Notes under the pieces: generated by a model
Seen by the model: the letters and a program-made list of their open reading frames with translations, nothing else
What the model was told of the DNA's origin: nothing
The model's database searches: none
In this document: positions 5,636 through 11,084 of the stretch, piece after piece
Position numbering within the stretch: position 1 is the stretch's first letter
Layout: every line of letters starts with the position of its first letter
Program-made: the position numbers and the translations under genes
Assembly: GCA_945876205.1 (NCBI GenBank)
Contig: CAMCNL010000001.1
Span: 1-64,000 of the forward strand
DNA from: Candidatus Sulfopaludibacter sp. SbA3
GTDB taxonomy: Bacteria > Acidobacteriota > Vicinamibacteria > Vicinamibacterales > UBA2999
DNA: 64,000 nucleotides
Direction of reading: 5' to 3'

Positions 5636-5884
5636 GTGGTTAGGACACAGATCCAACTGACAGATGCGCAGGCGCAGACCCTGAAAGCCCTGGCATCCTC
5701 CGAGGGCCGGTCGATGGCCGACTTGGTCCGCGATAGCGTGGACACGCTGTTGCGTGCTCGAGGCACCGTCGATCGCGAGGCCGTCAAGGCCCGGAGCATC
5801 GCCGCGCTTGGCCGGTTCAAGTCGACCACCAGCGATCTGGGCAGCAACCACGACGACCATCTGGCCGACGCCTTCGGCGCATGA
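5636..5884 (+). CDS. vapB: Ribbon-helix-helix antitoxin, VapB type
   Basis: An 82-residue protein with a CopG/MetJ-type N-terminus: the beta strand RTQIQLTDAQ, then helix AQTLKALASSEGRSMADLVRDSV, a typical ribbon-helix-helix DNA-binding dimer unit. The C-terminal tail (about residues 50-82, acidic and histidine-rich near HDDHLADAFGA) would bind and block the toxin. The stop overlaps the toxin start in ATGA, the usual antitoxin-first arrangement. The start is GTG. Confidence 0.85.
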   Translation: MVRTQIQLTDAQAQTLKALASSEGRSMADLVRDSVDTLLRARGTVDREAVKARSIAALGRFKSTTSDLGSNHDDHLADAFGA

Positions 5885-6279
5885 CGGCCTTCGTCGATAC
5901 GTCGGCGCTCCTCGCGCTGCTCGATGCCAGCGAAGACACGCACGCGGCATGCGCGCGGACTTGGAAGAAACTGCTGGAGGACAACGCGCTGCTCGTGACG
6001 TCGAGCTACGTGATGGTGGAGACCTACGCCCTCGCGCAGCGCCGGCTCGGGCTCGAGGCGGTCCGCGTGCTCACGGCCGACTTTCTCCCGCTCGTCACCG
6101 TGGATTGGGTGGACGAGTTCGTCCACGGCGCCGCGCTGGCGTCGCTCCTCACGGCCAACACGCGCGACCTGAGCCTGGTCGACTGCGTGAGCTTCGAGAT
6201 CATGCGCCGGCGTGACCTCCACGACGTATTCGCACTCGACAGTGATTTTTCGAAACAGGGTTTCACGGTCATTCCGTAA
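5881..6279 (+). CDS. vapC: PIN-domain ribonuclease toxin, VapC type
   Basis: A 132-residue PIN-domain protein. The acidic residues for the metal site are present: the Asp in TAFVDTSALLALLD near the N-terminus, a Glu in SYVMVETYALAQ, and Asp residues in TRDLSLVDCVSFEIMRRR and VFALDSDF near the C-terminus. PIN toxins cleave RNA, often tRNA or rRNA, and are neutralised by the antitoxin encoded just upstream with a four-base overlap. The target RNA cannot be deduced. Confidence 0.9.
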   Translation: MTAFVDTSALLALLDASEDTHAACARTWKKLLEDNALLVTSSYVMVETYALAQRRLGLEAVRVLTADFLPLVTVDWVDEFVHGAALASLLTANTRDLSLVDCVSFEIMRRRDLHDVFALDSDFSKQGFTVIP

Positions 6280-6290
6280 TACGGAGACGG

Positions 6291-7349
6291 CTACGAGTGC
6301 GAGTGGGGCTCGTCGTCCTTGGGATGGGTGTGGGTGTGCTTGTGGGCTCCGTGCCCGTGTTCGTGCGGACCGTGGCCATGATCGTGGTCGTGCATCAGCT
6401 CTTTCGGCACGTCCGGAAAGAGCTCCCGCGACGTCGGCGCCGCGCCGCCGGCCCACTCGACCCCGCCCTTCTTGCGCGCGGCTGAGAACAGATCGTCCCA
6501 CGACAGCTTCGCGGGATCGCGCGCGACGTCGAGCCGCTGCGCCAGCGCCGCGAGGATCAACTTGCGAAGGCGCCGGCCGTCCCATCCTTCACAGAGCGCC
6601 GCCAGCTCGGAGAGTCGCGCCGCATCCCGCGTCAGCGGCAGCAGCGCCGGCCACTGCACCGCCACCTCGCTGATCGAGCTGCCGAGGATCGCGGCCGTCG
6701 TCTCGCGATCGGGCAGCGCGAAGCGCATCACCAGGTCGGCTCGCGAGAGGAACGCCTCGTCCACGGCTTCGATGAAATTCGTCGTCGTCACGAACAGCAC
6801 CGACGGCAGGTTCTTGGCGATCTCGTCGATGCCGAGCAGCACCGCATCGGTCGCGCGATGCACGTCCACGGGATTGGCTTCAAACGACGCGGTCGATCGG
6901 CGCACCGCGAAGCTTTCGACCTCGTCGATCAGCACGACGGTGAACGGGCGCCGCGCGGCAATCTCGGGTACCGTCTCGGTCAGCAGCCGCGTCACGTTGC
7001 GCTGGCTCTCGCCGAGCATGTCGCTGGGAAATGCGTGCGGATTGATCTCGAGCAGGCACGTCGCCCCCTGCCGCGCCAGCGCCAGGGCCGCCACCTGCGC
7101 CAGCCCTCGCGCCATCGTCGTCTTGCCCGTTCCGGGCGGACCGGCGAGGACGATCAACCCGTGCGGCAGCCCCGACAGCATCGACAGCTTCCGGCCATGC
7201 TGCAGGACGAGCAACGCCTGCGCGAGCAGGCGCTCTTTCACCTGGCGCGGCACGATGATCGAATCCCAATCGCGATCGTGATGATCGGCCGGCAGGACGT
7301 GCATCGAGAGCACGCCCGGGGGCAGCGCCGATCGCGGCCGCTCCATCAT
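6291..7349 (-). CDS. TRIP13/Pch2-like AAA+ ATPase with a histidine-rich C-terminal tail
   Basis: A 352-residue AAA+ ATPase: Walker A GPPGTGKTTMARGLAQ, Walker B VVLIDEVES, sensor 1 TTTNFIEAVDEAFLSRAD and a C-terminal small domain with GWDGRRLRKL. The LIDEVES box, the D-x4-A-x-DAVL-x2-ID stretch, the TTxN-x5-D-x-AF-x-RAD stretch and the G-x-x-GR-x-LRKL sensor 2 region follow eukaryotic TRIP13/Pch2, which remodels HORMA proteins, more closely than MoxR or FtsH families. The last 33 residues hold 13 histidines, likely a metal-binding tail. Its start overlaps the stop of the bicupin gene (ATGA), so the two are translationally coupled. No HORMA protein or nucleotidyltransferase is encoded nearby. 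Confidence 0.75.
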   Translation of the reverse strand: MMERPRSALPPGVLSMHVLPADHHDRDWDSIIVPRQVKERLLAQALLVLQHGRKLSMLSGLPHGLIVLAGPPGTGKTTMARGLAQVAALALARQGATCLLEINPHAFPSDMLGESQRNVTRLLTETVPEIAARRPFTVVLIDEVESFAVRRSTASFEANPVDVHRATDAVLLGIDEIAKNLPSVLFVTTTNFIEAVDEAFLSRADLVMRFALPDRETTAAILGSSISEVAVQWPALLPLTRDAARLSELAALCEGWDGRRLRKLILAALAQRLDVARDPAKLSWDDLFSAARKKGGVEWAGGAAPTSRELFPDVPKELMHDHDHGHGPHEHGHGAHKHTHTHPKDDEPHSHS

Positions 7350-8404
7350 TCGCCGGGCCGCTTGTCTTCAGGCCACTCGATCTGCGACAGCTCCTGCATC
7401 GAGACGAGCGTGTCTTCCGCTTCCTCGAACAGCACCATCGGATCCATCAGCGTCCGCATCGTCTCGAGAATCGAGTCGAACATGTGGATGCGCACCAGCC
7501 GGCACTGGTTCACCGGGTCGTCGTTGAAGTGCTGATGCCAGAGGAAGTGATCGACGACGATGAGATCGCCCTTTTTCCAGCGGTGGTGCTCGCCCTGATC
7601 CGGCGAGTGGCCGAGGAAGCTGTGGCCGTAGCCTTCGACGACGTAGAGCCATGCCTCGCCGGGATGGCGATGCAGCGACTGCGTCTTGCCGGGAGCAAAC
7701 TGAATCATCACCTGCGTGAGTCCAGACGCCTCGTTGCCGATCGCGCGGTCGTTGAGAAACTTGGTGCGCGTCCCTCGCGGCGTCGCAAGGATCTCCTGCT
7801 CGTCATAGGGCGTATGGATGCGGCCCGAGCGCCGCTTCTTCGTTTCCTGCGCCAGGCGGCGGAGACGGCGCGAGTAGGGATCGTCGCCCGGGATCCCGCC
7901 GGAAAATTTCGGCCGCGGCGGCAGCTTCTCGAACGGCTCCCGTCCCGCGTCCTCGATCAGGCTCATGCCGAGCGTCCAGAGCATCGGCTCGGACGAATAG
8001 CTCATGAAGCGTCCCGGCCGGTCGCCGTCGTTGCCGTGGCGATGCCAGCTCCACGCGGGGATGTGGATCGCATCCCACGTCTTCCAGTCGTAGCGGACGC
8101 CGTCGACCTCCGTCCAGCCGCTGCCGTCGACCATGAAGAGGATCGCGTCCCAGGAATGGCGGTGGATCGTGGAGGTGGTTCCGGGGTCGACTTCGTGCAC
8201 GAGCGCGTCGAGACAGCGCGTCGGGCGGTCGCCGTCCCATCCCATGTAAACGCCGGTGCGAAGCCCGCGCGCGGTGGGCACGAGCGTCACGTCCTCCTGG
8301 CGGATGACGGTCTGCCGATAGTTTCGCCACTCCTCGATAAACTCGGCGCGGCGCTTCTTCTGGATGGCGTAATGGGTCGTGGTCGTCTTGGTCTTGGTGG
8401 ACAT
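7346..8404 (-). CDS. Bicupin protein, dioxygenase-like, coupled to the TRIP13-like ATPase
   Basis: A 352-residue protein with two cupin domains. The first has STIHRHSWDAILFMVDGSG and a later IPAWSWHRHGN; the second has QSLHRHPGEAWLYVVEGYG and DHFLWHQHFND. Each has the H-x-H and distal H-x3-N pattern that binds one metal ion; domain 1 lacks the usual motif-1 glutamate. The layout recalls gentisate/hydroxynaphthoate dioxygenases, but the substrate is unknown. There is no signal peptide, so it acts in the cytoplasm. I chose the ATG at 8404, since the frame upstream is an arginine/proline-rich extension. It is the first gene of a two-gene operon. Confidence 0.75.
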   Translation of the reverse strand: MSTKTKTTTTHYAIQKKRRAEFIEEWRNYRQTVIRQEDVTLVPTARGLRTGVYMGWDGDRPTRCLDALVHEVDPGTTSTIHRHSWDAILFMVDGSGWTEVDGVRYDWKTWDAIHIPAWSWHRHGNDGDRPGRFMSYSSEPMLWTLGMSLIEDAGREPFEKLPPRPKFSGGIPGDDPYSRRLRRLAQETKKRRSGRIHTPYDEQEILATPRGTRTKFLNDRAIGNEASGLTQVMIQFAPGKTQSLHRHPGEAWLYVVEGYGHSFLGHSPDQGEHHRWKKGDLIVVDHFLWHQHFNDDPVNQCRLVRIHMFDSILETMRTLMDPMVLFEEAEDTLVSMQELSQIEWPEDKRPGE

Positions 8405-8481
8405 GCGGGAAGAAACGATTAGACATAGAATCCCCGGCACGGTCAATTTCTCAATCCCGCTGTCCAGGTGCGCCGTTGAAT

Positions 8482-9090
8482 ATGAACAAGCCGTCTGAGG
8501 GCCGTCAGCCCACTGCACCCGAGGCGGCCGGCTCGGCCACGGCGCTCGCGATCGTCGCCAACGCGCTCCTGCTCTGCTCGCTCGCCGCGCTGCCCGCAGG
8601 GGGTCACACCTCCCGCGTGCAGAATCCGCTACCGCCGCCCGAGCGGCCGGCGGCATCGCACATGGCGACGAGCCATCTGACAATCGACGTGAGCGCCAGC
8701 AAGAACGAGGTGACGCCGGGGAGCCGCGTCTCGCTCCTGCTCGACATCGTGCCTCGGCGGCGGATGCACGTCTACGCGCCTGGCGCCACCGGCTACCGCG
8801 TGATCGAGCTCGCGATGTCGCCTGCCACCGGGGTGACCTATCAGCCGGTGAAATATCCTGCGTCCGAAATCTACGAGTTCGTGCCGCTGCAGGAGCGGAT
8901 CCCGGTGTACCAGAAGCAGTTTCAGCTTGTTCAGCCGGTGACGCTCGACGGCTCTCCCGCCGCCGCGGCGCGCCTCCGGAAGGCGAATACGCTTGTCATC
9001 AAAGGCACGCTGAGCTATCAGGCGTGCGATGATCGGCTCTGTTTCGCGCCGGTCTCGGTGCCGGTGTCCTGGATATTCGCGGTCAAGTAG
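8482..9090 (+). CDS. Exported DsbD alpha-domain-like protein
   Basis: A roughly 202-residue protein with an N-terminal hydrophobic segment (ALAIVANALLLCSLAALPA) that directs export. The C-terminal part matches the immunoglobulin-like N-terminal domain of DsbD: a middle YVPLQERI-like stretch (FVPLQERIPVYQKQF), a late GTLSYQACDDRLCFAPVSV with the characteristic C-x5-C pair, and a final VPVSW strand. In DsbD this domain passes electrons to periplasmic partners; here it is free of the membrane and thioredoxin parts. The thioredoxin-like gene directly downstream suggests a shared thiol-redox role. ATG at 8482 preferred over TTG at 8476. Confidence 0.75.
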   Translation: MNKPSEGRQPTAPEAAGSATALAIVANALLLCSLAALPAGGHTSRVQNPLPPPERPAASHMATSHLTIDVSASKNEVTPGSRVSLLLDIVPRRRMHVYAPGATGYRVIELAMSPATGVTYQPVKYPASEIYEFVPLQERIPVYQKQFQLVQPVTLDGSPAAAARLRKANTLVIKGTLSYQACDDRLCFAPVSVPVSWIFAVK

Positions 9091-9123
9091 CCGCGTCGCA
9101 TGTGCTGAGGCAGAGGAGGAAGA

Positions 9124-10077
9124 ATGCAGCGTCCTGTTGCGGTCCTGGCGGCGATTGTCTTCGCGTGCGGCGCGTGCGGTGCCGACGTCGCCACTGCCGG
9201 GCAGGGGGCCCGCCCGGCTGGACTCGTGCCGAGCGTCCGGGCCGCCATTGCGAAGCACGACTTCGCCGCCGGCGAGGCACTCATCAACCAGGAGCGGTCC
9301 CGGCAGGGCGTGACCTCCGAGCTTGCCGAGGCGGTTTCATGGCTGGGGCGAGGGGCGCTCGCCGACCGCGAGCTCGAGCGGGCCGAGCAGTACGCACTCA
9401 ACGCCGAGGACCTCTCACTCGAGCTGCTGAAGACGACGCGAGTGAACGACGACCGGCATCTGGAGCTTGCGCTCGGCGCGGCGATCGAGGTGCAGGCGCT
9501 CGTCAGGGCGGCACGCGGCGCGCGATCCGAAGCGGTCTACGGACTGAATCGGGCACTCGAGGACTACGGCGACACCGTTCTCCACAAGCGGATTCAGAAG
9601 AACATCAACGCGCTCAGCCTCGAAGGGCAGCCGGCCATCACCCTCGACAGGACGGAGCATCTCGGCGCGGTCGTGCCCACGTTCGATCAGTTGAAGGGCA
9701 AGGTCGTACTCCTCTTCTTCTGGGCGCACTGGTGCCCCGACTGCAAGACCGAAAGCCCAATCATCGCGAGGCTCCTCGACAAGTACCGCAGCCGGGGGCT
9801 CACGATCATCGCGCCCACTCAGCGCTTCGGATACATCGTCTCGGGGGCGTACGCGCCGCCCGACGAGGAACTGCGTCACATCATCGAGGTCCGCGACACG
9901 CACTACCCGTTTCTGCGCGATCAGCCGGTCCCGCTCAGCGACACCAACCACAAGGAGTACGGCGTTTCGTCGACACCCACGCTCGTCCTGCTGGACCGCC
10001 AAGGCATCGTGCGTGTCTACAATCCAGGGACGATGCGCGAGGCAGATCTCGACGCGGCAATCCAGCGTCTGCTGTGA
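9124..10077 (+). CDS. Exported TlpA/redoxin-type thioredoxin-like protein
   Basis: A 317-residue protein with a signal peptide ending near a Cys/Ala-rich segment (ACGACGADVATAG). The first half is helical; the second is a thioredoxin fold with WAHWCPDCKTESP, where CPDC is the redox-active pair, and a late SSTPTLVLLDRQGIVR containing the cis-Pro loop. Such proteins reduce disulfides in the periplasm. A strong ribosome site (AGAGGAGGAAG) precedes the ATG. The gene lies 33 bases after the DsbD-alpha-like gene, which could be its electron donor or acceptor. Confidence 0.85.
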   Translation: MQRPVAVLAAIVFACGACGADVATAGQGARPAGLVPSVRAAIAKHDFAAGEALINQERSRQGVTSELAEAVSWLGRGALADRELERAEQYALNAEDLSLELLKTTRVNDDRHLELALGAAIEVQALVRAARGARSEAVYGLNRALEDYGDTVLHKRIQKNINALSLEGQPAITLDRTEHLGAVVPTFDQLKGKVVLLFFWAHWCPDCKTESPIIARLLDKYRSRGLTIIAPTQRFGYIVSGAYAPPDEELRHIIEVRDTHYPFLRDQPVPLSDTNHKEYGVSSTPTLVLLDRQGIVRVYNPGTMREADLDAAIQRLL

Positions 10078-10097: not shown

Positions 10098-11084
10098 ATG
10101 CGCACCCTGTCGACGACGTTGCTGTGCTCCCTGCTCGCGTCTACCGTCCTGCCCGCCCAGGACGCGGGGCTCATCGACCGCGCGAAACGCGAGGGCCGGG
10201 TCGTGCTCTACACCTCGCTCGCCCCCACCGAATCGGCGCCGCTGGCCGCCGCGTTCGAGAAGAAGTACGGGATCAAGGTGGAGCTGTGGCGCGCCGCATC
10301 CGGCAAGGTGGTGCAGCGGACGATCACCGAGGCGCAAGGGCGGCGGTATGCCGTCGACGTCGTCGAGACCAACGGTCCCGAGATGGAGATGCTGACGCGA
10401 GAGAAGCTTCTTGGTCCCCTCTCGTCGCCGTACCTCGCGGACCTTCCGGCCAACGCGATACCCGCCCATCGCAGTTGGGCCCCCGATCGCCTGAACTTCT
10501 TCGTCGTGGGATACAACACCACGAAGGTGAAGCGAGCGGAGATCCCGGCGACCTATGAACGCTTCGTCGATCCGAAATGGAAGGGCCGGATCGCGCTCGA
10601 AGCGAGCGACACCGAGTGGATGGCGACGCTGATCAAGACCTGGGGCGACGCCAAGGGGATGGAGTACTTCCGCAAGCTCTCGGCGATGAGGCCCGACATC
10701 CGCGACGGCCACGTGCTGCTGGCGTCGCTGGTCGCCGCCGGCGAGGTGCCTGTCGGCCTGAGCATGTACGCCAGTAATATCGTGCCGCTGATGCGGAAGG
10801 GCGCGCCGATCGACTTCGTGCCGGTGCAGCCGGTGGTGGCGCGTCCGCAGGGAATCGGCGTGATGAAGAACGCCCCGCATCCGAACGCCGGACGACTCTT
10901 CACCGACTACGTGCTGTCACCCGAAGGACAGAAGCTGTTTGAATCAATGGGCCGCGTGCCGGCAAGCACGCGCGTGAAGAGCTCGCTCAACAACTTTCCG
11001 TTCACGATGATCGACCCGATCACCGTGCTCGATGAGTCGATGAAATGGGAGAAGCTGTGGAACGGCTTCTTCCTGAAGAAATAG
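10098..11084 (+). CDS. Extracellular solute-binding protein, iron(III)/AfuA type
   Basis: A 328-residue periplasmic binding protein. After a signal peptide (MRTLSTTLLCSLLASTVLPAQ) it has the family opening EGRVVLYTSLAPTESAPLAAAFEKKYG, the hinge FVVGYNTTKV, PKWKGRIALEASD and LSPEGQKLFESMGRVPAS near the end. These are typical of ferric or related anion-binding ABC components. No permease or ATPase gene is nearby, so it is an orphan here. I start at the ATG at 10098; the same frame is open far upstream, but that stretch overlaps the thioredoxin gene and is not coding. Confidence 0.85.
   Translation: MRTLSTTLLCSLLASTVLPAQDAGLIDRAKREGRVVLYTSLAPTESAPLAAAFEKKYGIKVELWRAASGKVVQRTITEAQGRRYAVDVVETNGPEMEMLTREKLLGPLSSPYLADLPANAIPAHRSWAPDRLNFFVVGYNTTKVKRAEIPATYERFVDPKWKGRIALEASDTEWMATLIKTWGDAKGMEYFRKLSAMRPDIRDGHVLLASLVAAGEVPVGLSMYASNIVPLMRKGAPIDFVPVQPVVARPQGIGVMKNAPHPNAGRLFTDYVLSPEGQKLFESMGRVPASTRVKSSLNNFPFTMIDPITVLDESMKWEKLWNGFFLKK

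Follow-up and report, generated by a model that had tools for sequence, protein, structure and literature searches.

The window analysed here comprises 64,000 nucleotides at the start of contig CAMCNL010000001.1 of Candidatus Sulfopaludibacter sp. SbA3 and carries two overlapping genes on its reverse strand. The upstream gene (7346–8404, minus strand) encodes a bicupin of 352 residues, identified by domain and homology searches as gentisate/salicylate dioxygenase-like and predicted to be a metalloenzyme. The downstream gene (6291–7349, minus strand) encodes an AAA+ ATPase, also of 352 residues, which was assigned to the TRIP13/Pch2 clade from its sequence and from profile and fold matches. The two reading frames share an ATGA (7346–7349, minus strand) made up of the TGA stop of the bicupin and the ATG start of the ATPase, and translational coupling via this overlap is likely. 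The same −4 spacing is present in five of seven relatives from the window's own family. Between the window and the related genome G002, third codon positions differ by 46% and second positions by 3% in the ATPase gene, and by 44% and 2% in the bicupin gene, which is evidence of strong purifying selection on both.

A gene for a substrate-binding protein (SBP) of the SBP_bac_6/8 type is located at 10170–11084 (plus strand) and is divergent from the pair, an arrangement shared with 11 other loci. Its product is 48% identical over 310 residues to an SBP of the cupin/EutA cluster described below, and it is the one remaining trace of that cluster beside the pair. In most relatives the SBP gene lies much nearer to the pair than in the window, where the region in between (8476–10077, plus strand) holds thiol-disulfide genes, encoding a secreted protein similar to the N-terminal part of DsbD and a TlpA/thioredoxin-like protein. 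Just downstream of the ATPase gene and convergent with it, a gene for a PIN-domain (VapC-like) protein and a small ORF upstream of that gene are present at 5636–6279 (plus strand); these two are probably a toxin-antitoxin pair.

The ATPase contains a Walker A motif GPPGTGKT (residues 70–77; 7119–7142), a pore-loop 1 segment FPSDMLGESQR (6999–7031), a Walker B motif VVLIDEVES (6912–6938), a sensor 1 TTTN (6777–6788) followed by SRAD, and a sensor 2 GWDGRRLRKL (6558–6587), all encoded on the minus strand. Alignment and motif checks found both Walker motifs, the sensors and the arginine residues intact. The original prediction had called the protein TRIP13/Pch2-like on account of its LIDEVES Walker B box, TTxN...RAD sensor 1 and G-x-x-GRxLRKL sensor 2; every one of these motifs is present, and the PADLOC TRIP13 model PDLC00915 matches with 322 bits (E=1e-96), the runners-up being the other TRIP13 model with 61 bits and IetA with 51 bits. 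Among Pfam models the plain AAA domain scores 69.6 bits, while the MoxR-type AAA_3 reaches only 19.6 bits, below its cut-off of 27, which rules out a MoxR/NorQ identity. Against the PDB, a single-sequence search gave 95 bits for the best Pch2/TRIP13 structure and 71 for the best VCP/Cdc48, and a family-profile search gave Pch2/TRIP13 152 bits versus 111. All of the top 12 Foldseek matches of the structure model (pLDDT 80) are Pch2/TRIP13 proteins, the bacterial 6p8v (E. coli CBASS Trip13) included. A better fit to some other AAA+ clade, which would have contradicted the prediction, was not seen in PADLOC, Pfam, the PDB or Foldseek. Judged by its sequence, the ATPase is a member of the TRIP13/Pch2 clade, from which hexameric, ATP-driven remodelling is inferred. 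The best solved-structure match, by sequence and by fold, is eukaryotic TRIP13/Pch2; unlike it, the window ATPase has no N-terminal adaptor-binding domain ahead of the AAA module and no HORMA client.

The ATPase ends in a histidine-rich tail (6294–6392, minus strand) which is predicted to be disordered from the model, where residues 322–352 have a pLDDT under 50. The 13 histidines in 33 residues given in the original prediction were confirmed by count, with only 7 in the other 319 residues (binomial p about 1e-13). The tail is however not universal, being present in 12 of the 15 relatives with a readable terminus and absent in L058, L060 and L061. It therefore cannot be essential or part of the core, and as a defining feature of the cupin-linked ATPases it is ruled out. 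In composition it may be compared with the Ni-binding stretches of HypB (17 histidines in 32 residues) and CooJ (16 in 34; PMC8704837). Binding of Ni(II) by the tail, and its hand-over to an enzyme, are inferred.

A Pfam search identified two Cupin_2 domains in the bicupin. The N-terminal cupin carries the metal motif HRHSWDA (8144–8164) and a second motif AWSWHRHGN (8030–8056), in which W120, H121 and G124–N125 are invariant. The C-terminal cupin carries HRHPGEAW (7649–7672), which supplies two His and one Glu, and WHQHFND (7520–7540) with W289, H290, Q291, H292, N294 and D295 invariant, all four motifs being on the minus strand. Both metal motifs are invariant in 15 of 15 sequences, and in the alignment HRHSWDA...W-x-WHR and HRHPGEAW...WHQH-x-ND remain unchanged across three phyla, so that both domains should bind metal. 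The closest characterised or solved relatives are the gentisate, salicylate and 5-nitrosalicylate 1,2-dioxygenases, from which the bicupin differs in that its C-terminal cupin retains a full 3-His/1-Glu set. The bicupin scores about 69 bits against NCBIfam cut-offs of 442–650, and the name gentisate dioxygenase is ruled out by a score of 68.6 bits where 442.1 would be needed; its reaction and substrate are thus far inferred, with no experiment. We know of no need for an ATPase in any of these three dioxygenases. Gentisate dioxygenases are Fe(II) enzymes and are the best likeness of the bicupin, so iron is a possible metal. The structure model of the bicupin is poor (pLDDT 53) and its fold search is therefore only a hint. 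A segment THYxIQKxRRAxFxEEW is conserved ahead of the first cupin and might, as an inference, serve as a handle for the ATPase motor.

In all 16 genomes which hold the cupin-linked branch of the ATPase, the bicupin gene lies directly upstream of the ATPase gene. These genomes (Acidobacteria, Beta- and Gammaproteobacteria, Actinobacteria) comprise that of the window and seven others of its family, six Beta- and Gammaproteobacteria, Nocardioides agariphilus and one actinobacterial MAG. The seven family genomes each represent a separate genus; their ATPases are 85–88% and their bicupins, immediately upstream, 87–93% identical to those of the window. A bicupin-centred search of the family gave the pairing in eight of eight cases, and family genomes without one of the two genes also lack the other. 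In a scan of named genomes, the ATPases of the proteobacteria, of Nocardioides agariphilus and of the actinobacterial MAG are 53–81% identical to that of the window and all are paired. The pairing is thus obligate, and its absence in relatives, which would have spoken against the original prediction, was not observed. The claim that the operon partner is a two-cupin protein and not a HORMA or cyclic-nucleotide gene also extends to every genome of the set, with no HORMA or cyclase gene adjoining. The lack of an adjoining HORMA gene makes it less likely that the ATPase performs the usual work of TRIP13, but has no bearing on its place in the clade. Physical contact between the two proteins is an inference for which there is no experiment.

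The bicupin of the betaproteobacterial locus L052 is 91% identical to that of the window, and such identity across phyla suggests horizontal transfer. Plasmid searches found no copy of the TRIP13–bicupin pair. No further pairs turned up in the orders surrounding one betaproteobacterial genome and that of Nocardioides, and the module therefore appears to be rare and patchy. It is nevertheless carried by a pure culture, Nocardioides agariphilus KCTC 19276. The pair in record VFYY01000081.1 (L050/L005), which is titled Acidimicrobiia, is the same, with identical match figures, as that of G013, a genome placed in the window's family; record title and placement disagree.

The pair is part of a larger catabolic system which includes an ABC importer, a thiamine pyrophosphate (TPP) enzyme, a dehydrogenase and more cupins. 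In L110 (betaproteobacterium SCGC AG-212-J23) the order is a Rieske oxygenase, a second bicupin (bicupin C), a small cupin, two SBPs, a dehydrogenase fragment, the TPP enzyme, an ABC ATPase, an ABC permease, an EutA-like protein, an IclR regulator, a NicO/UreH-type transporter and an SBP, followed by the divergent bicupin–TRIP13 pair. The cluster of L111 is similar, and in both loci the TRIP13 and EutA systems reside within one cluster. In the window's family the ABC/EutA/cupin cluster lies on a separate contig from the pair; in the window's own genome the contig of the cluster is G000:C31 (L068). This contig and L069, L070, L072, L073 and L075 contain cupins, SBPs, the ABC importer, the dehydrogenase, usually the TPP enzyme, and an EutA-like ATPase with histidine-rich ends. 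Rieske oxygenase alpha subunits in L110 (3–734) and L109 (1–1239) are 61% and 73% identical, respectively, to that beside a cupin–EutA pair of Phyllobacterium, and class II aldolase genes are found in L115, L118, L120 and L128. These neighbours hint at a pathway for an aromatic or sugar-type acid.

EutA, the reactivating factor of ethanolamine ammonia-lyase, is a dedicated ATP-dependent partner of one enzyme, and its fold is unrelated to that of TRIP13. The EutA-like protein of the cupin clusters matches Pfam EutA with 379 bits and pairs with a sister bicupin. Whereas canonical EutA sits beside EutBC and lacks histidine-rich ends, the EutA-like proteins of the cupin clusters have a histidine-rich N-terminus and often a histidine-rich C-terminus as well. 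EutA-like genes are present in 15 of the 16 pair genomes: within the family set, 7 of 8 pair genomes have one as compared to 1 of 51 others (Fisher p 2e-7), and outside the family all eight do, although these counts are not independent of relatedness. EutB is absent in seven of the eight family pair genomes, and among the family carriers of an EutA-like gene only G027 has it; for the most part, ethanolamine ammonia-lyase does not accompany the EutA-like protein. The EutA-like gene adjoins bicupin C in eight loci (L108, L112, L114, L116, L121, L124, L125 and L128) which lack the rest of the cluster or have only parts of it, and in L119 and L120 its neighbour is a related cupin. Four plasmid records have an EutA-like match of at least 40%, and the same four, with no others, have bicupin C at about 40%; the EutA–bicupin pair is found on Phyllobacterium zundukense and Sinorhizobium plasmids.

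A further ATPase occurs in the Nocardioides locus L060 (1011–3461, minus strand), where a CDC48-type double AAA+ protein with a histidine-rich N-terminal stretch (DHEHTDEHHHHDHGHSHE) is encoded among bicupins and a similar ABC transporter; the TRIP13 pair lies 5 kb away. No close plasmid relatives of the Nocardioides bicupins were found, and this third pairing therefore rests on one genome.

Evidence for the metal comes from transporter genes. A NicO/UreH-type transporter gene lies next to the divergent SBP gene beside the pair in L052, L058, L110 and L117, which places a NicO nickel/cobalt transporter in the divergent operon of four of the six proteobacterial loci for which upstream sequence is available. 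Those four genomes have one or two NicO genes each, and the probability of such a placement by chance is about 0.002–0.005 per genome. NicO gave no match in any of nine acidobacterial genomes searched, among them that of the window. On a Phyllobacterium zundukense plasmid (L120, 8696–13078) a NiCoT transporter gene and nikR come after a cupin–EutA pair, and another pair of this kind from the plasmids of this species (L128, 9026–16328) is accompanied by a TPP enzyme, an oxidoreductase and a YjbE-family metal transport gene. Owing to these linked nickel-type transporters and the HypB/CooJ-type histidine-rich ends, nickel is the leading candidate for the metal of the bicupin. This identity is inferred, cobalt or iron are not excluded, and the NicO-type transporter beside the pair could serve another enzyme. 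The likeness to the nickel chaperones HypB, UreE and CooJ consists in the histidine-rich stretch, where present, and in the nickel transport genes near some pair loci; unlike the window ATPase, these chaperones are not AAA+ proteins, and they serve hydrogenase, urease and CO dehydrogenase. A working likeness also exists to NorQ/NorD and other MoxR-VWA ATPases, in which an AAA+ motor enables metal insertion into a metalloenzyme (PMC13036017). However, these belong to another AAA+ clade, and a domain search gave no match to a VWA partner in either gene of the pair, the partner of the window ATPase being a bicupin.

Taken with the pairing, the histidine-rich tail and the neighbouring nickel transporter in several relatives indicate that the ATPase probably loads or reactivates the metal of the bicupin. 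We propose, with a probability only slightly above one half (about 0.52), that the bicupin and its dedicated TRIP13-type ATPase form a module for metal insertion or exchange, with nickel as the likeliest metal. The bicupin would be a mononuclear metalloenzyme of the gentisate/salicylate dioxygenase type acting in the uptake and breakdown of an organic acid, perhaps an aromatic one. The TRIP13-clade hexamer would have switched clients, gripping the bicupin instead of HORMA proteins, and would spend ATP on opening it or unfolding part of it, which would expose the metal sites. The correct metal could then enter, or a wrong or oxidised metal leave. Nickel might be supplied from the cytosol or from the ATPase tail, which, where present, would hold it and pass it on as the stretches of HypB, UreE and CooJ do. 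For the second bicupin of the same system, the EutA-like ATPase with its histidine-rich ends may do the same job. That the ATPase acts on a cupin by loading it with metal, unfolding it or activating it had been put forward as an inference at the outset; the nickel-type transporters at four of six proteobacterial loci, the invariant metal motifs and the sister EutA–bicupin pair support it, while the mechanism, metal insertion or exchange included, is experimentally unproven.

A broader and more tentative hypothesis, to which we give somewhat less than even odds, is that bicupins each have their own ATP-driven nickel chaperone, with three unrelated or distant ATPase types (TRIP13, the EutA fold and the CDC48-type protein of Nocardioides) recruited independently, and often provided with histidine-rich ends, for metallating or reactivating nickel-dependent bicupins of one catabolic system. 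If three types of ATPase turn out to act as nickel chaperones of bicupins, this would be a categorically new principle; a metal-inserting TRIP13 and a metallochaperone of the EutA fold would each be the first of its kind described, and a new set of nickel enzymes would be added. If the metal insertion proposal holds, AAA+ and Hsp70/actin-fold ATPases would join the short list of nickel-delivery machines, and nickel-dependent cupin enzymes would be indicated in common soil bacteria. Related modules are present in pure cultures (Nocardioides agariphilus, Phyllobacterium zundukense) and are therefore directly testable.

The main rival explanation, which we consider unlikely without discarding it, has the ATPase rescue the bicupin without delivering metal, in the manner of reactivases such as Rubisco activase or EutA proper. 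By pulling on the bicupin it would expel a tightly bound inhibitor or product, or sort out oligomers that had misassembled; the metal would bind by itself and the tail would be only a metal buffer or incidental. TRIP13 remodels folded clients without degrading them, the sister pair has the fold of EutA whose known role is reactivation, and the tail is dispensable in three relatives, all of which is in keeping with rescue. It leaves unexplained, however, the nickel-type transporters beside the pair, the NiCoT transporter and nikR beside the cupin–EutA pair, and the histidine-rich ends on two unrelated ATPase folds. Metal insertion and rescue share the ATPase as a dedicated partner of the bicupin.

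It is also conceivable, at rather low odds, that the pair is regulatory, with a bicupin that senses a metal or metabolite and switches like a HORMA protein, an ATPase that resets it, and the neighbouring transport and catabolic genes as output. There is a precedent in type III CBASS, where TRIP13 with HORMA proteins regulates cyclase activation (PMC9122588), and in several relatives the pair is divergent to the SBP gene with an IclR regulator close by. Yet the metal sites of the two cupins are complete and, as in enzymes, do not vary, and the domain search found neither a DNA-binding nor a signalling domain in the two proteins. Still a little less credible is mere sharing of an operon, with the ATPase serving other clients of the pathway, such as the other cupins, or the cell generally: the clusters, with up to five cupins, would offer such clients, but in the window's family the pair stays together away from the other cupins, and the pairing holds in 16 of 16 genomes over three phyla, often with a gene overlap.

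Relatives of the ATPase at 42–47% identity belong mostly to loci of type III CBASS, an anti-phage system, where HORMA and cyclase genes accompany them; this assignment excludes L062 and L064. bacHORMA_2 and SMODS are found beside the TRIP13 relative in L065, an S_4TM effector in L067, and in five plasmid loci an annotated CBASS cyclase lies three genes away. That the pair is a degenerate CBASS or other defence system, with the bicupin as effector or sensor, is highly improbable even though its closest non-cupin relatives are CBASS TRIP13 proteins, since neighbourhood domain searches found no CD-NTase, HORMA or effector genes near the window pair or the pairs of relatives, the bicupin partner and the context of transport and catabolism rule such a system out, and bacHORMA_2 was not found in the 16 pair genomes, though a control of the same search also gave no signal, so that no genome-wide lack of HORMA genes is claimed.

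In our tree the cupin-linked ATPases form one group with moderate support (bootstrap 80) beside CBASS TRIP13, and the two are jointly separate from other AAA+ proteins (99/98). The window ATPase resembles bacterial TRIP13 (Cap6) of type III CBASS in profile and in the Walker, sensor and ANPxDxHRATDA motifs. The partners differ, being HORMA and CD-NTase proteins in CBASS and a bicupin here, and most members of the window's branch have a histidine-rich tail. Pore-loop 1 is near-invariant in the cupin branch (PS[DE][ML]LGESQR), in contrast to the SSAMGKTQ or SAEHGxSQ types of CBASS; such a fixed and distinct loop is what a change of client would be expected to leave, an inference from sequence comparison alone. 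To our knowledge, every TRIP13/Pch2 ATPase studied remodels HORMA proteins, in the checkpoint, meiosis or CBASS. In the open-licence literature, to which our survey was limited, no paper connects TRIP13 to a cupin enzyme, or a cupin to AAA+ proteins and reactivation; as far as found, the client and the probable function differ from those of described TRIP13 proteins. The cupin-linked branch, with HORMA exchanged for a predicted metalloenzyme, shows that the TRIP13 motor is portable, and the pair offers a simple two-protein system for asking what TRIP13 recognises. On a Paenarthrobacter plasmid (L096, 4524–5837), a gene annotated as a GNAT acetyltransferase contains an AAA+ domain that shares 34% identity with the ATPase of the window, an annotation issue or a fusion that is worth a look.
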